A DNA stretch of 64,000 nt from Jiangella aurantiaca (GTDB lineage Bacteria; Actinomycetota; Actinomycetes; Jiangellales; Jiangellaceae): positions 62,001 to 126,000 of the forward strand of contig NZ_SMLB01000008.1 of assembly GCF_004349105.1 (NCBI RefSeq), read 5' to 3'. Shown in pieces: positions 48,680 through 55,536 of this stretch. The stretch's first letter is position 1. Every line of letters starts with the position of its first letter. The notes beneath the pieces were generated by a model. The model worked only from the letters and a program-made list of their open reading frames with translations, was not told where the DNA came from and ran no database searches. A program made the position numbers and the translations under genes.

Positions 48680-50338
48680 TCAGGCCGGGACGGTGCCGCC
48701 CATGATCTCCGCGCGCAGTGGCCAGTGTGACCAGTAGGCGCCCGTGTAACCCAGCTCGGTGAGCCGCAGCAGGAACGGGTTGTCCGCGTAGTTGTTGTCC
48801 TCCGGCGACAGGCCGGGTGCCGTCGGCAGCATCACCCGCGGGCGGTCGTGCAGCGGCACCCATTCCCACAGCAGCTCGAGGCTGGTCAGCCAGCGGTCGC
48901 CCGGATGGGTGTTCCGGGCGCCCTCGGGCAGCGCGGGGGAGAAGTAGTACACCGGCCGGAACCCGCCCATCGGGTCGAACATGAACTGCCGCTCGTACTC
49001 CACCCGGCTGTGGCACTGGCCCAGCGTCGACAGCAGGATCGGCGCCGTCGCCGTGTTCGACTGCACGCCGGGGACGGCGCGCGTGCCGCCGCTGCGGGCG
49101 GCGAGGTCGCGGCCGAGCGGGGAGTACGGGAACGCGCGGATGCCCAGTGTGAACCCGACCACGGTGGCGTCCAGAGAGAGCAGCCCGTCGACGCAGTCGC
49201 GCATCGTCTCGGCCGTCTCACCGGGCATGCCGAGCAGCGCCTCGACCATCGTCAGCATCCCGTACTGCTTCGCCAGCTCGCACAGGCGCTCGAGGTCGGC
49301 GTAGCCGTAGAAGCGGGTGCCGCGCCCGGTCACCTTCCAGCCGTCCAGGACGTCGTCGCGGACGTGGTCCGGCGCGACGTTGATGCCCGCGCAGCCCGCT
49401 TCGGCCAGCAGTTGCGCGTACTCCTCGTCGAACGGCGCCGGCTGCACGTAGATCCACAGCCGCAGGTCGTGCAGCGGCGAGTACCGGTCGGCCCGCTTTC
49501 GGCGGACGATCTCGCGCAGCACCGCCTTGCTGTGCGCGATGTTGAGGTTGAACTCGCTGTCGGTGGTGTGCAGGTCGTGCACGCCCTGCGCCGTCAGCAG
49601 CTCCATCTCGTCGACGACGGCGGTCTCGGCGCGGCGGGCGAACCGGTTGCCCTTGGCATCGGGCTCGACACAGTGGGCGCAGGCGAACGTGCAGCCGTTC
49701 TTCGTCAGGATGTTGCCCAGCCCGCCGCGTTGGTAGTAGGCGAGGTTGTCGACCTTGCGCGGCACGCCGGAGCGGCGCGTGTACGGCGTCGCCCGGTTCA
49801 CCAGGTCGACCCGGCCGTCGGCCGTCAACGGCGTGCGGTGCGGTATCTGCCGGACGTCGCCCTTGCCGAGGTTGATGATGAGCCCCGGCACCTTCGCCGG
49901 CGAGTCGCCGTTCGCCAGCATCGTCGCCAGCTCGACCAGCGTCACCTCGCCCGGCCCCTTGACGCCGTAGTCGATGCCGAACCAGTCCACCAGCGCGAAC
50001 GGCATCGACGAGAACCCCACCCCGCCGCCCACGATCGGCGCCGTCGTCCAGCGCTGGACCTCGCGCACGATGTCTCGGTGCGAGTCGAGGAAGACCCGCT
50101 GCTCCTGCGGGTAGATGGTGTCCGTGTTCCGGAACGTCATGCCCACCAGCAGCGGCCGGCGCTCGGCGAAGTAGGTCGCGACGGTGTGCCGCCACCGGTC
50201 GCGCAGCAGCGTCAGGTCGACGACGTCCACCTCGAACCCGGCCGCCTCCAGCGACGTGGTGAGGATGTCGAGCGCGTACGGCGTGATGGGCGGGTGCACA
50301 AGGTTCGGGTTCACCAACGTGACGAGCGGGCCGTTCAC
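48680..50338 (-). CDS. B12-binding radical SAM enzyme, TsrM-like tryptophan 2-C-methyltransferase
   Basis: A 552-residue class B radical SAM protein. Residues 1-150 form the cobalamin-binding domain (PPITPYALDILTTSLEAAGF, PIVGGGVGFSSMPFALVDWF) without the DxHxxG cobalamin-ligand motif, and with Arg70 in GMTFRNTD, both as in TsrM. The cluster-binding motif is CTFACAHC at 216-223 (C-x3-C-x2-C), followed by HTTDSEFNLNIAHSK. TsrM methylates C2 of tryptophan in thiostrepton biosynthesis. No thiopeptide genes are near; the next minus-strand gene is a tryptophanase. GTG start with GGGGAGG upstream. The assignment rests on remembered family sequence. Confidence 0.85.
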   Translation of the reverse strand: MNGPLVTLVNPNLVHPPITPYALDILTTSLEAAGFEVDVVDLTLLRDRWRHTVATYFAERRPLLVGMTFRNTDTIYPQEQRVFLDSHRDIVREVQRWTTAPIVGGGVGFSSMPFALVDWFGIDYGVKGPGEVTLVELATMLANGDSPAKVPGLIINLGKGDVRQIPHRTPLTADGRVDLVNRATPYTRRSGVPRKVDNLAYYQRGGLGNILTKNGCTFACAHCVEPDAKGNRFARRAETAVVDEMELLTAQGVHDLHTTDSEFNLNIAHSKAVLREIVRRKRADRYSPLHDLRLWIYVQPAPFDEEYAQLLAEAGCAGINVAPDHVRDDVLDGWKVTGRGTRFYGYADLERLCELAKQYGMLTMVEALLGMPGETAETMRDCVDGLLSLDATVVGFTLGIRAFPYSPLGRDLAARSGGTRAVPGVQSNTATAPILLSTLGQCHSRVEYERQFMFDPMGGFRPVYYFSPALPEGARNTHPGDRWLTSLELLWEWVPLHDRPRVMLPTAPGLSPEDNNYADNPFLLRLTELGYTGAYWSHWPLRAEIMGGTVPA

Positions 50339-50462: not shown

Positions 50463-50523
50463 GGACGCTTCGCGTTCCGTCCTGGCATTTGCATGCGCAA
50501 CTGATCAGGCTCGATGTGTGAAG

Positions 50524-50817
50524 ATGATCGTCCGCACCGCAGGCGTGACGTCCCCCGAACAGACCGTCGGCTCGGTCATCCGGCAGGCCCGCTGCCGGCT
50601 CGGCTACAGCCAGTACGGCATCGCCGACGAACTCGCCCGGATCTCCGGCAATGGCTCGCTCACCCGCGACGAGGTCGCCCGCTGGGAACGGGGCAAACGC
50701 ATCCCCGGCCCGTACTGGCGGCAGTGGATCAGCCAGGTCCTGGACGTGGGCTCGACGGACCTGGAGCGGGCCGCCCGGGCGGCGCGGCAGGCTCGCCGGG
50801 CGCGAGTACCGCAGTGA
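50524..50817 (+). CDS. small XRE-type helix-turn-helix regulator
   Basis: About 97 residues. The helix-turn-helix is SVIRQARCRLGYSQYGIADELA (roughly residues 16-37) and continues DEVARWERGKRIPGPYWRQW, closely similar to the N-terminus of the regulator at 54064-55536 (ARWERGRQVPRREWRQW). It is thus a DNA-binding-only relative of that protein. I start at ATG 50524; a GTG two codons upstream is possible. Its 3' end overlaps the convergent tryptophanase gene by 89 bases. It probably regulates the tsrM-tryptophanase locus. Confidence 0.8.
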   Translation: MIVRTAGVTSPEQTVGSVIRQARCRLGYSQYGIADELARISGNGSLTRDEVARWERGKRIPGPYWRQWISQVLDVGSTDLERAARAARQARRARVPQ

Positions 50818-52153
50818 AGTGCCGCAGCGGCCCGGTCTGCTCGACGATCCGGTAATCCGGGATCTCCGCCGCCTTCGCCACCACGGTGCCCGCCGTCTCG
50901 GCGACGTACTCGAGATGGCTCTTGGTGTAGACCCTCCTGGGGAGGGCGAACCGGACCAGCTCGCGCGGCGCCGGCAGGTCGTCGCCGCCGTCCGGATGGG
51001 GCCGGCCGAACACCAGGGTCCCCAGCTCGGACACCCGCACGGCACCGGCCAGGTACAGCTCGTTGGCCAGCGCCGTCGCCGGAAGCCGGTGCGGCGGCAC
51101 GTGTGGCAGCAGCGCCGCGGCGTCGACGTACACGGCGTGGCAGCCGGTCGGCTGCAGGACCGGCAGTCCGGCCTCGGCCAGCCGGTCGCCGAACCAGCGC
51201 GCGGTCTGCGCGCGGTAGCGCAGGTAGTCCGGGTCGGTCACCTCGAGCAGGCCCTGGGCCAGCACGTCCAGGTCGCGGCCGGCCAGCCCGCCGTACGTCG
51301 GGAATCCCTCGACCTCGATCAGCTGGTCGCGGCAGCGGCGCGCCAGCTCGGCGTCGCGCAGCGCTATCAGGCCGCCGATGTTCGCCACGCCGTCCTTCTT
51401 CAGACTCGCCCAGCAGCCGTCGGCCAGCGCGAACACCTCGCGCGCGACGTCGCGGGGCGGCCGGCCGGCGTGCGCGGGGTCACGCTCGGTGATGAGGTAG
51501 GCGTTCTCCGCGAACCGCGACGCGTCCAGCAGCAGCGTCACGCCGTGCCGGTCGCACAGCCGGCGGACCGCGGTCACGTTGTCCATCGACACCGGCTGCC
51601 CGCCACCGGCGTTGTTCGTGACCGTCAATACCACGCAGCGCACGCGGGCGCCGTCGGGACCTGACAGCAGCTCCCGCAGCGCGGGGACGGAGATATCGCC
51701 GCCGAACGGCGCGGGGGCGTCGTGCTCCGCCGGGAGGTCGACGGCGACCGCGCCGGCCGCCTCCACGCTGGCCCGCGTCGTGTCGAAGTGGGTGTTGGCG
51801 ACGGAGACGTCGCCGGGCCGCAGCAGCCGGCCGAGCAGGATCCGCTCGGCCGCCCGGCCCTGGTGCGCCGGGATCACCTCGGGGTACCCGGTGAGCTCGC
51901 GCACCACCGTCTCGAACCGCTCGTACGAGCGCGCACCCGCATACGACTCGTCGCCGGTCATCAGGGCCGCCCACTGCGCCGCTGACATCGCGCTCGTCCC
52001 GGAGTCGGTGAGCAGGTCGATCGTGATCGCCCGGGCCGGCACCCGGAACAGGTTGAAACCGGCGTCGCTGAGCATGCGGCGGCGTTCGAGCAGGCTGGGG
52101 AACGGGATCGGCTCGACGGCCTTGATGCGGAACGGCTCCATGAACGCGGGCAC
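50729..52153 (-). CDS. tnaA: tryptophanase / beta-eliminating lyase
   Basis: A 474-residue PLP enzyme aligning along its length with tryptophanase: MEPFRIKAVEPIPFPS, IDLLTDSGTSAMS, GDESYAGARSYERFE, IPAHQGRAAERIL, NNAGGGQPVSM, SRFAENAYLI, the PLP lysine in SLKKDGVANIGG (Lys253), EGFPTYGGLAGRD and RHFTAVL near the end. Tyrosine phenol-lyase is the close alternative. It cleaves tryptophan to indole, pyruvate and ammonia. The GTG at 52153 is chosen for the GGAGGG nine bases upstream. The 25-residue Pro-rich tail after RHFTAVL overlaps the XRE gene. Confidence 0.88.
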   Translation of the reverse strand: MPAFMEPFRIKAVEPIPFPSLLERRRMLSDAGFNLFRVPARAITIDLLTDSGTSAMSAAQWAALMTGDESYAGARSYERFETVVRELTGYPEVIPAHQGRAAERILLGRLLRPGDVSVANTHFDTTRASVEAAGAVAVDLPAEHDAPAPFGGDISVPALRELLSGPDGARVRCVVLTVTNNAGGGQPVSMDNVTAVRRLCDRHGVTLLLDASRFAENAYLITERDPAHAGRPPRDVAREVFALADGCWASLKKDGVANIGGLIALRDAELARRCRDQLIEVEGFPTYGGLAGRDLDVLAQGLLEVTDPDYLRYRAQTARWFGDRLAEAGLPVLQPTGCHAVYVDAAALLPHVPPHRLPATALANELYLAGAVRVSELGTLVFGRPHPDGGDDLPAPRELVRFALPRRVYTKSHLEYVAETAGTVVAKAAEIPDYRIVEQTGPLRHFTAVLAPGEPAAPPGRPAPGPSSPRPGPG

Positions 52154-52246
52154 CGGCGCACTCCCTCCGCCGTCCGGACTGTCACGTCCGAGTGTGGGCG
52201 TCCGGGGACACGCCTGGCAGGGGCCAGTTTCGCAGATGACCGACAC

Positions 52247-52275
52247 TGTGACACTTTCGGCGCTATTGTGACACT
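52247..52275. promoter_or_regulatory. AraC-type direct repeats between tryptophanase and araC genes
   Basis: TGTGACACT occurs at 52247-52255 and 52267-52275, a 20-base period that places both on the same helix face, as AraC-family dimers require; ACCGACACTG just before is a third, degenerate copy. The repeats lie between divergent starts at 52153 and 52390. Confidence 0.6.
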
Positions 52276-52389
52276 CCATGGGGGTGACGGGTGGAGGAGC
52301 AGGGACTAGCCTGCGAATCGATCTTGTCTGATTTTTGCGGATCCACGGTGCGGTGCCGTACGGGGGGAGCGCCCGCGGGGGAGACCACC

Positions 52390-53370
52390 ATGACGACTGT
52401 GCCGCTCGACCGATATCCGTTGTTCACGTCACACGATCTGGACCATGCGCGCGACGTGGTCGGGCGGATCTTCACGCCGCACCGGCTCGACCTGCTCGGC
52501 CGGTCCACCGAGCTGAGCGCCCAGATGAACACGCGCCGCATCGAGCGCGTCGCCGCGAACTACATCACCTACGGCGGCGACGTCCTCATCCAGCCCGGCG
52601 AGCTGGGCTCGTTCTTCGTCGTTCAAGTGCCGCTGTCCGGCCGTAGCCTGGTCCGGTACGGCGGCGAGGAGCTGCTGTCCACCCCGGACGTCGCCTCCGT
52701 GATCTCGCCGACGGTGCCGCTGACGCAGCGCTGGTCGGCCGACTGCGCGCAGCTCATCCTGCGAGTGGAGCGGTCGGCGCTCGAGGCACACCTGCGCACC
52801 ATCATCGAGGCGCCCCTGCCGGAGCCGATCCGGTTCGAGCCGAGCATGGACGTGCGCTCCGGGTCGGGGCGGCGCTGGCTGTCGGTGTTCCGGCTGCTGG
52901 TCGATGAGCTGGACCGGCCCGACGACAGCCTGATCAACTGGCAGGTCGTAGCGGCGGAGTACGAGGACTGGCTGATGACCGGCCTGCTGAGGGCCCAGCC
53001 GAACAACTACTCCGAACTGCTCGACGCACCGACGCGCTCGCCCGTCCCGCACCGTGCGGTGTCGATCGCGCGCGACTACATCGAGAGCCACCCGGAGTGG
53101 CGGCACACCGTGACGAGCCTGGCCAAAGAGGCGCGGGTCGGCGTGCGGGCGCTCCAGATCGCGTTCCGCCAGCACATGGGCACGACGCCGCGGGCCTACC
53201 TGACCCAGGTCCGCATGCAGCGCGCCCACGAGGAGCTGCTCGCCGCCCAGCGCGACATGACCACGGTGAACAGCGTGGTCGCGAGGTGGGGCCTGGGCCA
53301 TCCCGGCCGCTTCGCCAGGGCGTACTACGCCCTCTTCGGTGAGTTGCCGTCAGAGACACTCGCGCGGTGA
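52390..53370 (+). CDS. AraC family transcriptional regulator
   Basis: A 326-residue regulator. The N-terminal cupin-like sensor (about residues 1-210, with NYITYGGDVLIQPGELGSFF and SPTVPLTQRWSADCAQLILRV) belongs to the AraC_binding_2 type, and the C-terminal double helix-turn-helix has HTVTSLAKEARVGVRALQIAF, GTTPRAYLTQVRMQRAHEEL and VARWGLGHPGRFARAYYALFGELPSE. It is divergent from the tryptophanase gene and probably controls it. The next gene encodes a paralogue of its sensor domain only. Confidence 0.92.
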   Translation: MTTVPLDRYPLFTSHDLDHARDVVGRIFTPHRLDLLGRSTELSAQMNTRRIERVAANYITYGGDVLIQPGELGSFFVVQVPLSGRSLVRYGGEELLSTPDVASVISPTVPLTQRWSADCAQLILRVERSALEAHLRTIIEAPLPEPIRFEPSMDVRSGSGRRWLSVFRLLVDELDRPDDSLINWQVVAAEYEDWLMTGLLRAQPNNYSELLDAPTRSPVPHRAVSIARDYIESHPEWRHTVTSLAKEARVGVRALQIAFRQHMGTTPRAYLTQVRMQRAHEELLAAQRDMTTVNSVVARWGLGHPGRFARAYYALFGELPSETLAR

Positions 53371-53399: not shown

Positions 53400-54035
53400 A
53401 TGAGCGCCGCGCCACTGGACCGCTTCCCGGTCCTGCGCTCGGCCGACGTCGAGCACACCCGGGAGGTCATCTACCACTTCGTCCACCGCCACCCGATCGA
53501 GCTGGTGCGGCCCGACGACGGCCTCGACGCGTGCATCAACGGCCGGCGGCTCGACCGCATCGGGGCCGCCTACCTGGCGTTCGGCGCCGAGACCCGCACC
53601 GATCCCGGCCGGCTGGACTTCTACCTGCTCCAGCTCGTGCTCTCCGGGTCGTACACGGTGTGGCTGGGCGACCGCGAGATCCGGGCGGAGCCGGGCGCGG
53701 CGGTCGTGCTGTCGCCCGGCGACGACGTCCGCACCTGGTGGTCCGCCGACTGCGGGCTGCTGTGCTTCCGGATAGGCGCGGCGGACTACCGCGACCACCT
53801 CGCCGGGCTGCTGGCCCGTCCACTGGATGAGGAGCTGCGGTTCGAGCCCGAGATGGACCTGCTCCACGGGCGCGGCCGCGATCTCAACGTCGGCATCATC
53901 CGGCCGCTCACCCAGCGGCTCAACCAGGTGTTCGGGCTGATCGCCCACTCCGTCCTGGCCCGGCAGCTGGAGGACACGCTGCTCACCGGGCTGCTGCGGG
54001 CTCAGCCGCACACGTACTCGGGCTCGCTCGGCTGA
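53400..54035 (+). CDS. AraC sensor-domain paralogue lacking the helix-turn-helix
   Basis: A 211-residue protein homologous to the sensor half of the preceding AraC regulator: APLDRFPVLRSADVEHTREV matches VPLDRYPLFTSHDLDHARDV, WWSADCGLLCFRI matches RWSADCAQLILRV, and the end DTLLTGLLRAQPHTYS matches DWLMTGLLRAQPNNYS, after which it stops just where the DNA-binding domain would begin. I start at ATG 53400 by alignment with the paralogue; a GTG at 53367, overlapping the araC stop, is the alternative. It may heterodimerise with the regulator or sequester ligand. It is intact, not frameshifted. Confidence 0.8.
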   Translation: MSAAPLDRFPVLRSADVEHTREVIYHFVHRHPIELVRPDDGLDACINGRRLDRIGAAYLAFGAETRTDPGRLDFYLLQLVLSGSYTVWLGDREIRAEPGAAVVLSPGDDVRTWWSADCGLLCFRIGAADYRDHLAGLLARPLDEELRFEPEMDLLHGRGRDLNVGIIRPLTQRLNQVFGLIAHSVLARQLEDTLLTGLLRAQPHTYSGSLG

Positions 54036-54063: not shown

Positions 54064-55536
54064 TCAGCCGAACAGGTCGAGCTGCGGGGCGAGGATGCGG
54101 GCCTCGTCCACCAGCGACCGGACGGCGGGCAATGCCGCTCCGACGTCGGCGACGGTGACCCGGTTGTCGCGGCCGACCGGGCGGCCCAGGCTCAGCTGCC
54201 GCTGGCGCAGCAGCTCGAGGTGCCCGAACCGGTCGCCGAACTGCGCGATGACGCACCGCCCGACGACGTCGCCGTCGGCGCCCGGTGCGGGGCGGAGTCC
54301 CTGTGCGGCCAGCAGTCCGCAGCCCACCAGCTGTGCCGCCTGGCAGACCAGCACGAACGCCGAGCCGGCCGACGCCGCCATGACGTCCTCCGCTGCCGTC
54401 AGGTGGTGTGCGGCCAGGTCGAGGTAGGGCCGGGCGTCGGCGGCCGGCCCGCTGAACAGCTCCAGCCGGTTGCCGGCCAGCAGCTCGGCGACGACGTCGG
54501 CGCCGGCCGGCCATGTGCCGGTCCCGGCCGACACGCAGTCGGCGGCCGCCGGCGGCGCGACGTGGACGACCGGCAGACTGCCGCGCTGGCGCGGGATCCG
54601 GACCCGCTCCAGCTGGTGCGTCCGCGGCGCGGTCCGCAGCGCCAGGTGCGGGCCGCGGCCGGCCGGTGCGCGGTGAGCGCCGTTCTCCGGCCGTCCGATC
54701 AGGGCGAACGCGACGCGCCGGCGCAGCCGGCGCTCGGCCCGCCGGGCCGCCGCGACCAGCTCCGGCCGGCCGGGCGTGTGGTGCTCGTCGGGGGTGAGCC
54801 GCACCTGGATGACGTCCGGCTCCGGCCCGACGACGCCGGTGAACCGCTCCGCCCAGGTGCCGGTCAGCGCGATCCGTGCGACGCCGGCGACCCGCCCGAA
54901 CTCCTCGCCGACGATCTGCGGCACGCCGTACGTGCCGCGGATCAGCTCGGTGAGCGGGGCGATCGTGGCGCGGTCTGTGGCCGCCCGCATCAGCCGGATG
55001 GCGCCGTCGTTGCGCCGGACCAGGATGCCGGCGTCCTCGAGCAGCTTGGCCTCCTTCGACACCGAGGCGAGCGAGCCGCCTGCGTGTTCGGCGAGCTCCG
55101 TCAGGCTGAAGGCGCGATCGGGGTTCAACAGCGTGGCCGCGAGGATTCCGGCTTGGACGCGCGACCGGAACACCGGCAGCAGTGCCGGGGTGCCCTGCGG
55201 CCGGCGTGCCGTTCCGTTCTGCGGCGGCGGGGTGACCGCCGCCGCGTGTCCCAGCCGGCTCTGCCGCCGGGCCACCGCCGCGCCGGCGTCGAGGCGGTCG
55301 GCCGGGACCTCCAGGACCACGGCGAGCCACTGCCGCCACTCGCGTCGCGGCACCTGCCTGCCGCGCTCCCAGCGGGCGACGCGATCGCGGCCCATCGTGG
55401 GTTTGCCGGAGACCGCCGCGAGACGGTCCGCCAGCGTGTACTGGCTCATGCGCAGGCGTTGCCGGGCTGAGCGGATCATCTGTCCGATGGGCAGATCCGG
55501 GTCGCCGTGAGATTCCGCGTTCATGTCTGCACACAC
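54064..55536 (-). CDS. multidomain XRE regulator with nucleotidyltransferase-like and HEPN-like parts
   Basis: A 490-residue protein. Residues 15-75 are an XRE-type helix-turn-helix (RSARQRLRMSQYTLADRLAA, ARWERGRQVPRREWRQW). Residues 125-185 look like a winged helix (FSLTELAEHAGGSLASVSKEA, LLEDAGILVRRNDGAIRLMR). Residues 200-250 resemble an MNT-type nucleotidyltransferase core (RIALTGTWAERFTGVVGPEPDVIQV), where the usual G-S-W-A and D-x-D are altered to GTWA and DVIQ, so it is probably inactive. The last 150 residues are helical and HEPN-like without a clear R-x4-6-H motif. The stop lies 28 bases from the convergent paralogue gene. The domain calls beyond the HTH are inference. Confidence 0.7.
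   Translation of the reverse strand: MCADMNAESHGDPDLPIGQMIRSARQRLRMSQYTLADRLAAVSGKPTMGRDRVARWERGRQVPRREWRQWLAVVLEVPADRLDAGAAVARRQSRLGHAAAVTPPPQNGTARRPQGTPALLPVFRSRVQAGILAATLLNPDRAFSLTELAEHAGGSLASVSKEAKLLEDAGILVRRNDGAIRLMRAATDRATIAPLTELIRGTYGVPQIVGEEFGRVAGVARIALTGTWAERFTGVVGPEPDVIQVRLTPDEHHTPGRPELVAAARRAERRLRRRVAFALIGRPENGAHRAPAGRGPHLALRTAPRTHQLERVRIPRQRGSLPVVHVAPPAAADCVSAGTGTWPAGADVVAELLAGNRLELFSGPAADARPYLDLAAHHLTAAEDVMAASAGSAFVLVCQAAQLVGCGLLAAQGLRPAPGADGDVVGRCVIAQFGDRFGHLELLRQRQLSLGRPVGRDNRVTVADVGAALPAVRSLVDEARILAPQLDLFG

Follow-up and report, generated by a model that had tools for sequence, protein, structure and literature searches.

An HTH-less AraC-type sensor encoded directly behind its full-length relative in Jiangella: a candidate partner subunit

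The window, the whole 64,000-nt stretch of Jiangella aurantiaca DNA that was analysed, encodes a full-length AraC-family regulator (P1) and, directly behind it, a second protein (P2) that has the sensor domain of this family and no HTH. The P1-P2 pair is conserved in most of Jiangella, P2 is under purifying selection and belongs to a separate clade of HTH-less sensors, and a set of direct repeats upstream of P1 is conserved as well. P2 likely functions as a partner of P1. We assign a probability of roughly 0.55 to the reading that P2 is a functional HTH-less partner subunit that heterodimerises with P1 and restrains or tunes it. The features of the locus are as follows:

48680–50338, minus strand: B12 radical SAM enzyme, tryptophan 2-C-methyltransferase family (TIGR04428, 944 bits, cut-off 500)
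50729–52279, minus strand: tryptophanase / tyrosine phenol-lyase family enzyme, divergent from P1 (PF01212, 1.7e-66; NCBIfam)
52247–52288, plus strand: candidate P1 operator, three direct repeats between the divergent genes (TGTGAC-N14-TGTGAC-N11-GTGAC; pattern matches)
52390–53370, plus strand: P1, full-length AraC-family regulator, 326 aa (Pfam PF14525, 6.6e-47, and HTH_18, 1e-18)
53400–54035, plus strand: P2, HTH-less AraC_binding_2 protein, 211 aa (PF14525, 3e-31; HTH none)
54064–55536, minus strand: convergent, syntenic regulator-like protein (MarR/HTH_20 matches weak, below cut-off)

P2 is an AraC sensor domain that ends before the HTH

The P2 frame is open from its ATG and its product matches AraC_binding_2 (PF14525) with 108.9 bits, above the curated cut-off of 27, over profile positions 9–172 of 173, which places it among the sensor domains of this family. 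Pfam at E 0.01 gives for P2 this domain and a weaker, overlapping AraC_binding match only; neither an HTH nor a LuxR-type autoinducer-binding domain was found. P1 has the C-terminal AraC HTH of an AraC-family transcriptional regulator and P2 does not. The two proteins are identical at 79 of 209 positions (38%; BLASTP, E 4e-44), and with P2 as the query they are the only two matches in the own genome at E 0.001. The description in the initial annotation, of an intact protein that aligns with the sensor half of the preceding regulator and is translationally close to it, is borne out by this alignment, by the AraC_binding_2 domain in both proteins and by the 29-nt spacing between them.

That P2 ends before the DNA-binding domain, as had also been stated, agrees with the position of its C-terminus, which falls in the linker: in the P1 model, confidence is low over residues 214–219 and helices resume at 222. 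In-frame reading downstream of P2 met stops and no HTH recognisable by eye. Since the convergent gene ends at 54064, 28 bp from the P2 stop (54035), there is no room for an HTH remnant between them.

Alternative starts were considered for three of the genes. P2 could also be read from a GTG at 53367, which is in frame and overlaps the stop codon of P1. Homology of P2 begins at the ATG (53400), however, and judging by the P1-P2 gap lengths the equivalent GTG lies in another frame in G001, G011 and G006. For P1 an in-frame GTG is found also at 52291, and the ortholog starts agree with 52390. Homology of the divergent enzyme starts near residue 46, so its start is probably the ATG at 52141.

Distribution of the pair in Jiangella and relatives

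Conservation of the pair at homologous loci, proposed earlier as a check, was examined in 12 Jiangella genomes, the own one (G000) included. P2 lies directly behind P1 in eight of them (G000, G001, G003, G005, G006, G007, G009 and G011), with gaps of 29, 26, 29, 31, 31, 17, 4 and 5 nt; all eight P2 frames are open and have similar ends (211–219 aa). The convergent gene adjoins the pair in relatives too. G004 and G010 carry P1 without an intact P2, and in G008 P2 is absent and P1 is broken into two overlapping frames (L043:7971-8953), which is either a real break or an assembly error. Neither gene was found in G002. The methyltransferase of G002 is represented by its C-terminal third only (L148:7089-7637, near a contig end), and no tryptophanase or P1 match was present near this remnant on the contig piece examined.

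Outside Jiangella, six P1 loci, from two genera, lack P2. Some genomes can therefore dispense with P2. Matches to P2 remnants behind P1 in G010, G008, G021, G012, G015 and G017 were weak, with a best E of 0.012 among the first four matches listed for each. Genus g5 has four solo sensors that are not directly behind P1; in two of its genomes a protein without Pfam match stands directly before the solo (L044:10475-11389, L045:8325-8981). Two g5 genomes also have the mirror image of P2, namely open reading frames with an AraC-type HTH and no sensor domain (L045:2225-2818, L050:9762-10172), and a 77-aa frame at L049:5444-5677, near a complete solo, resembles the C-terminal part of solo sensors. 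A contig search returned an 86% match in Jiangella endophytica and two weak partial matches in Alcanivoracaceae-type records.

The HTH-less sensors form one clade

According to the initial annotation, an HTH in all homologues of related genomes would mark P2 as a truncated pseudogene; an HTH was present in none of the 11 solo proteins scanned. In a tree with 17 full-length proteins of Jiangellaceae, from which G008 and the two HTH-only frames were left out, all twelve HTH-less sensors, from Jiangella and genus g5, fall into a single clade (98/95). Eleven solos, a solo with a masked stretch being omitted, stay together (97/98) after addition of eight full-length outgroup proteins. A recent origin of P2 by truncating duplication of P1 is rejected by both trees. 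Long branches make an old age of the clade probable, within trees that are unrooted.

We also surveyed 345 genomes of the class with a solo profile, scoring the best 8 candidates per genome. None of the 42 matches outside Jiangellaceae had an open frame shorter than 329 aa, and the short frames proved to be the 12 solos, the broken P1 of G008 (in two pieces) and, in G020, a fragment of 97 aa. In the PF14525 survey, none below 314 aa was seen outside the family among the matches listed for the class sample (mostly 10 candidates per genome scored), and the own P2 was the only short one among 9 matches listed for the phylum sample. A common architecture was rejected, as short solo frames outside Jiangellaceae were not seen among the matches listed. 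Orphan sensors of other AraC subfamilies may occur elsewhere.

Selection and residue conservation

In four pairs, dN/dS of P2 is 0.26–0.43 with upper 95% limits of 0.42–0.67 (Nei-Gojobori), and in each pair 0 of 1000 bootstraps reached at least 1. P1 gives 0.13–0.25 in the same pairs, and over all 28 pairs the ranges are 0.26–0.69 for P2 and 0.13–0.36 for P1. These values, below 1 but above those of P1, indicate that P2 is constrained, though less than P1. Likewise, 52 of 210 alignment columns are invariant in P2 vs. 100 in P1, so P2 evolves faster. The earlier preference for a functional protein rather than decay is supported by these values, the open frames and the tight spacing.

Comparison of the eight species revealed 42 positions conserved alike in P1 and P2 (in at least 7 of 8 species in each protein) and 15 conserved differently. 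Region 184–207 holds 9 conserved-alike positions among 24 vs. 33 among 186 elsewhere (Fisher p 0.031, a single uncorrected test) and none of the 15 type-specific differences. Helix 157–174 has no excess of conserved-alike positions (5 of 18, p 0.37). Eleven of the 15 type-specific differences lie before residue 127, in the barrel half.

Predicted structure of P2

AlphaFold2 models were obtained with pLDDT 92.1 and pTM 0.89 for P2 and with pLDDT 89.2 and pTM 0.64 for P1. The predicted fold of P2 is that of an AraC regulatory domain; its model contains all elements of the P1 sensor, both post-barrel helices included. In AraC-type proteins the helices after the barrel form the dimer. The nearest solved fold to the P2 model is CuxR (PDB 5nla; Z 17.5, rmsd 3.1, 179 residues), an AraC-like activator that is also nearest to the P1 sensor (Z 17.6); unlike P2 it is a full regulator, and the identities are 14% and 10%. 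BgaR (Z 12.5), ExsA (Z 10.5) and AraC (Z 10.0) follow. Sigma-1 receptor rows from Foldseek (TM under 0.4) were taken as a shared cupin barrel only. A PDB sequence search matched the HTH half alone (18 sequences).

Metabolic context and the candidate operator

The methyltransferase-family enzyme scores above the TIGR04428 cut-off, which assigns it to the tryptophan 2-C-methyltransferase family. The divergent enzyme reaches 556.9 bits for the NCBIfam tryptophanase subfamily (cut-off 285) and falls short of the equivalog cut-offs for tryptophanase and tyrosine phenol-lyase. The TIGR04428 cut-off is exceeded in 15 of the 345 genomes of the class, all Jiangellaceae; each of them also has, close by, a tryptophanase-family gene and a homologue of P1 (broken in G008), and in 8 of the 15 P2 adjoins P1. 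P1 probably controls tryptophan chemistry, and the enzyme pair points to a pathway that perhaps leads from 2-methyltryptophan to a 2-methylindole-like product. This context was missed in the initial annotation. The best NCBIfam match of both P1 (149 bits) and P2 (41 bits) is AndR, the anthranilate 1,2-dioxygenase regulator (NF041686), but both scores are far below its cut-off of 350 bits and the proteins are not AndR.

An alignment upstream of P1 revealed a repeated GTGAC. In the window, the triple direct repeat has one match at up to 2 mismatches vs. 0.01 expected, and in the own genome the related repeat pattern occurs once, at the same place. An exact match to TGTGAC-N14-TGTGAC-N9-12-GTGAC occurs once per genome in 10 of the 12 Jiangella genomes, in every case upstream of P1; none of the 12 contains an exact match to the reversed control pattern. 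G004 and G010 keep the triple repeat without an intact P2; upstream of the G008 P1 the first two repeats are kept and the third is changed. The first two repeats have a period of 20 bp, which fits an AraC-type protein.

At 2 mismatches, all 12 Jiangella genomes, including G002, which lacks P1, show a second place where the first two repeats are perfect but the third is changed; in the own genome it lies at G000:C26:36957-36998, with two TGTGAC 20 bp apart. Its near-identical letters across genomes suggest a conserved coding sequence. Other scattered matches occur, most of them in G002, and the reversed control gives 1 in all. One site per genome is therefore true for exact matches only, and the second place together with the other matches makes a wider regulon possible. 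Six Jiangellaceae genomes outside Jiangella gave 6 matches at 2 mismatches, none of them located at P1 (control 1).

Apparent exchange at the locus in G009 and G004

The rpoB-region tree unites G009, G010 and G004 in a clade (100/100), which groups with G008, G005 and G007 (SH-aLRT 98.6, bootstrap 78) apart from G003/G006. The methyltransferase tree, in which G008 was not included, likewise sets G009, G010 and G004 apart from G003/G006. In the P1 tree, these three group with G006 (90/94), and in the P2 tree G009 groups with G003/G006 (100/100). The conflict of the P1 and P2 trees with the rpoB-region tree suggests that G009 received both genes together. The convergent neighbour gene of G009 has the same foreign affinity (99/97), so the exchanged block was not the P1-P2 pair alone. 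It seems from these trees that G009 received P1, P2 and the convergent neighbour together and kept both P1 and P2.

Behind the foreign-type P1 of G004 we found a P2 relic of about 210 of 633 bp, scoring as protein 35.0 bits vs. a maximum of 24.6 in 200 shuffles. By DNA it is nearest to the G000-type P2 (E 9e-24, 9e-21, 1e-18, 1e-18 and 4e-6 for G000, G005, G007, G011 and G001, vs. 1e-6, 8e-5 and 0.002 for G003, G006 and G009), whereas the P1 of G004 is of the G009/G006 type. Protein scores of the relic separate the types poorly (35.0 for G000, 33.9 for G003, 31.2 for G009). P2 of G004 may have decayed after losing its matching P1, which as one event is suggestive only, or the exchange itself could have cut P2 directly.

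Proposed role of P2 and alternative explanations

We propose that P1 binds the direct repeats at 52247–52288 and would thereby control both the tryptophanase-family gene divergent from it and the P1-P2 operon to which it belongs, from which the two proteins would be made side by side. P2, predicted to fold like an AraC sensor and to retain the C-terminal helix through which members of the family pair, would then form P1:P2 heterodimers with a single DNA-binding half. Such a dimer would not occupy two repeats together, and P2 would thus restrain or threshold P1. The effect is possibly ligand-dependent, as the barrel residues differ from those of P1. Our estimate, slightly better than even, balances the tight P1-P2 order, the solo clade, selection, the shared helix residues, the repeats, the G004 relic and precedents in another family against the persistence of P1 and the repeats without P2 in G004 and G010, the g5 solos apart from P1 and the faster evolution of P2. 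Of the dedicated partner suggested by the initial annotation, the partnership has circumstantial support in gene order, shared last-helix residues and one apparent gene swap; the occurrence of P1 without P2 in two Jiangella genomes and at six loci of two other genera speaks against a strict partnership.

Possible, but distinctly less probable than partnership by restraint, is that P2 is a co-sensor helping P1, the heterodimer reading a second signal (e.g. a pathway product) needed for full activation. The sensor fold is predicted intact, purifying selection acts on P2, and the 15 differently conserved positions fall mostly before residue 127. Yet in G004 and G010 P1, the repeats and the enzymes persist although no intact P2 is present, so P2 is not needed there, and lowered DNA occupancy is the simpler effect of an HTH-less subunit. 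It is rather improbable that P2 acts without P1, as a stand-alone AraC-fold ligand sink or as partner of another protein. The four related g5 solos, two of which follow an uncharacterised gene, would fit this, but P1-P2 order and tight spacing are kept in all eight Jiangella genomes with P2, and G009 has P1 and P2 of the G003/G006 type together, though the neighbour gene too. That P2 is a truncated P1 duplicate on its way to decay would be consistent with its faster evolution and its absence in G004 (relic), G010 and G008; the eight open frames, the low dN/dS (far under 1) of four pairs, the shared HTH-free end and membership in one clade with solos of genus g5 make it very improbable. Loss of the HTH by assembly or sequencing error can practically be dismissed, since eight assemblies show similar P2 ends and the window has a syntenic convergent gene just 28 bp further on; nothing was found in favour of such an error.

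Under the preferred partner reading, P2 would work most like TrlR and CerN, which belong to another family. In Agrobacterium tumefaciens, TrlR is described as a TraR paralogue without DNA-binding domain that blocks TraR via inactive TrlR:TraR dimers (PMC3907764). P2 resembles it as a transcription-factor paralogue minus the DNA-binding domain; TrlR is a LuxR-family protein of the Ti plasmid that is opine-induced, whereas P2 is an AraC-family sensor directly behind its full-length relative, and its inhibitory effect is proposed by analogy. CerN of Cereibacter sphaeroides, described as an HTH-less LuxR homologue that with AHL interferes with CerM binding to DNA (PMC11655674), is likewise an HTH-less relative of a regulator; it differs from P2 by its family, its role in quorum sensing and its known ligand. 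P2 shares with such HTH-less antagonists the retained sensor/dimer domain and the absence of a DNA-binding domain. For an HTH-less AraC sensor acting as a partner, no AraC-family precedent was found among the records listed from open-licence PMC papers.

In the LuxR family, paralogues without an HTH are documented to disable their relatives; if the partner reading is true, the conserved P2 behind its full-length relative would show the same trick arising in the AraC family. A wider picture, which we hold tentatively and consider unlikely as a whole, is that the HTH-less AraC sensors of Jiangellaceae are an old family of their own. In Jiangella they would provide an additional ligand-gated subunit with different tuning, and a single control site would be set both by the ratio of P1 to P2 and by two signals derived from tryptophan (e.g. 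substrate and product of the 2-methyltryptophan / tryptophanase pair), which would amount to an AraC-family analogue, in bacteria, of eukaryotic microproteins. The locus may reveal the signal and the product of a tryptophan methylation / tryptophanase pathway for which we found no characterisation in these bacteria, and testing should be simple, as the expected regulon is small, with a single exact operator match in each genome. Two genes flanking the locus, at 50518–50817 and 54064–55536, have a related N-terminal HTH (about 45–57% identity, as seen in cross matches at the loci of relatives).
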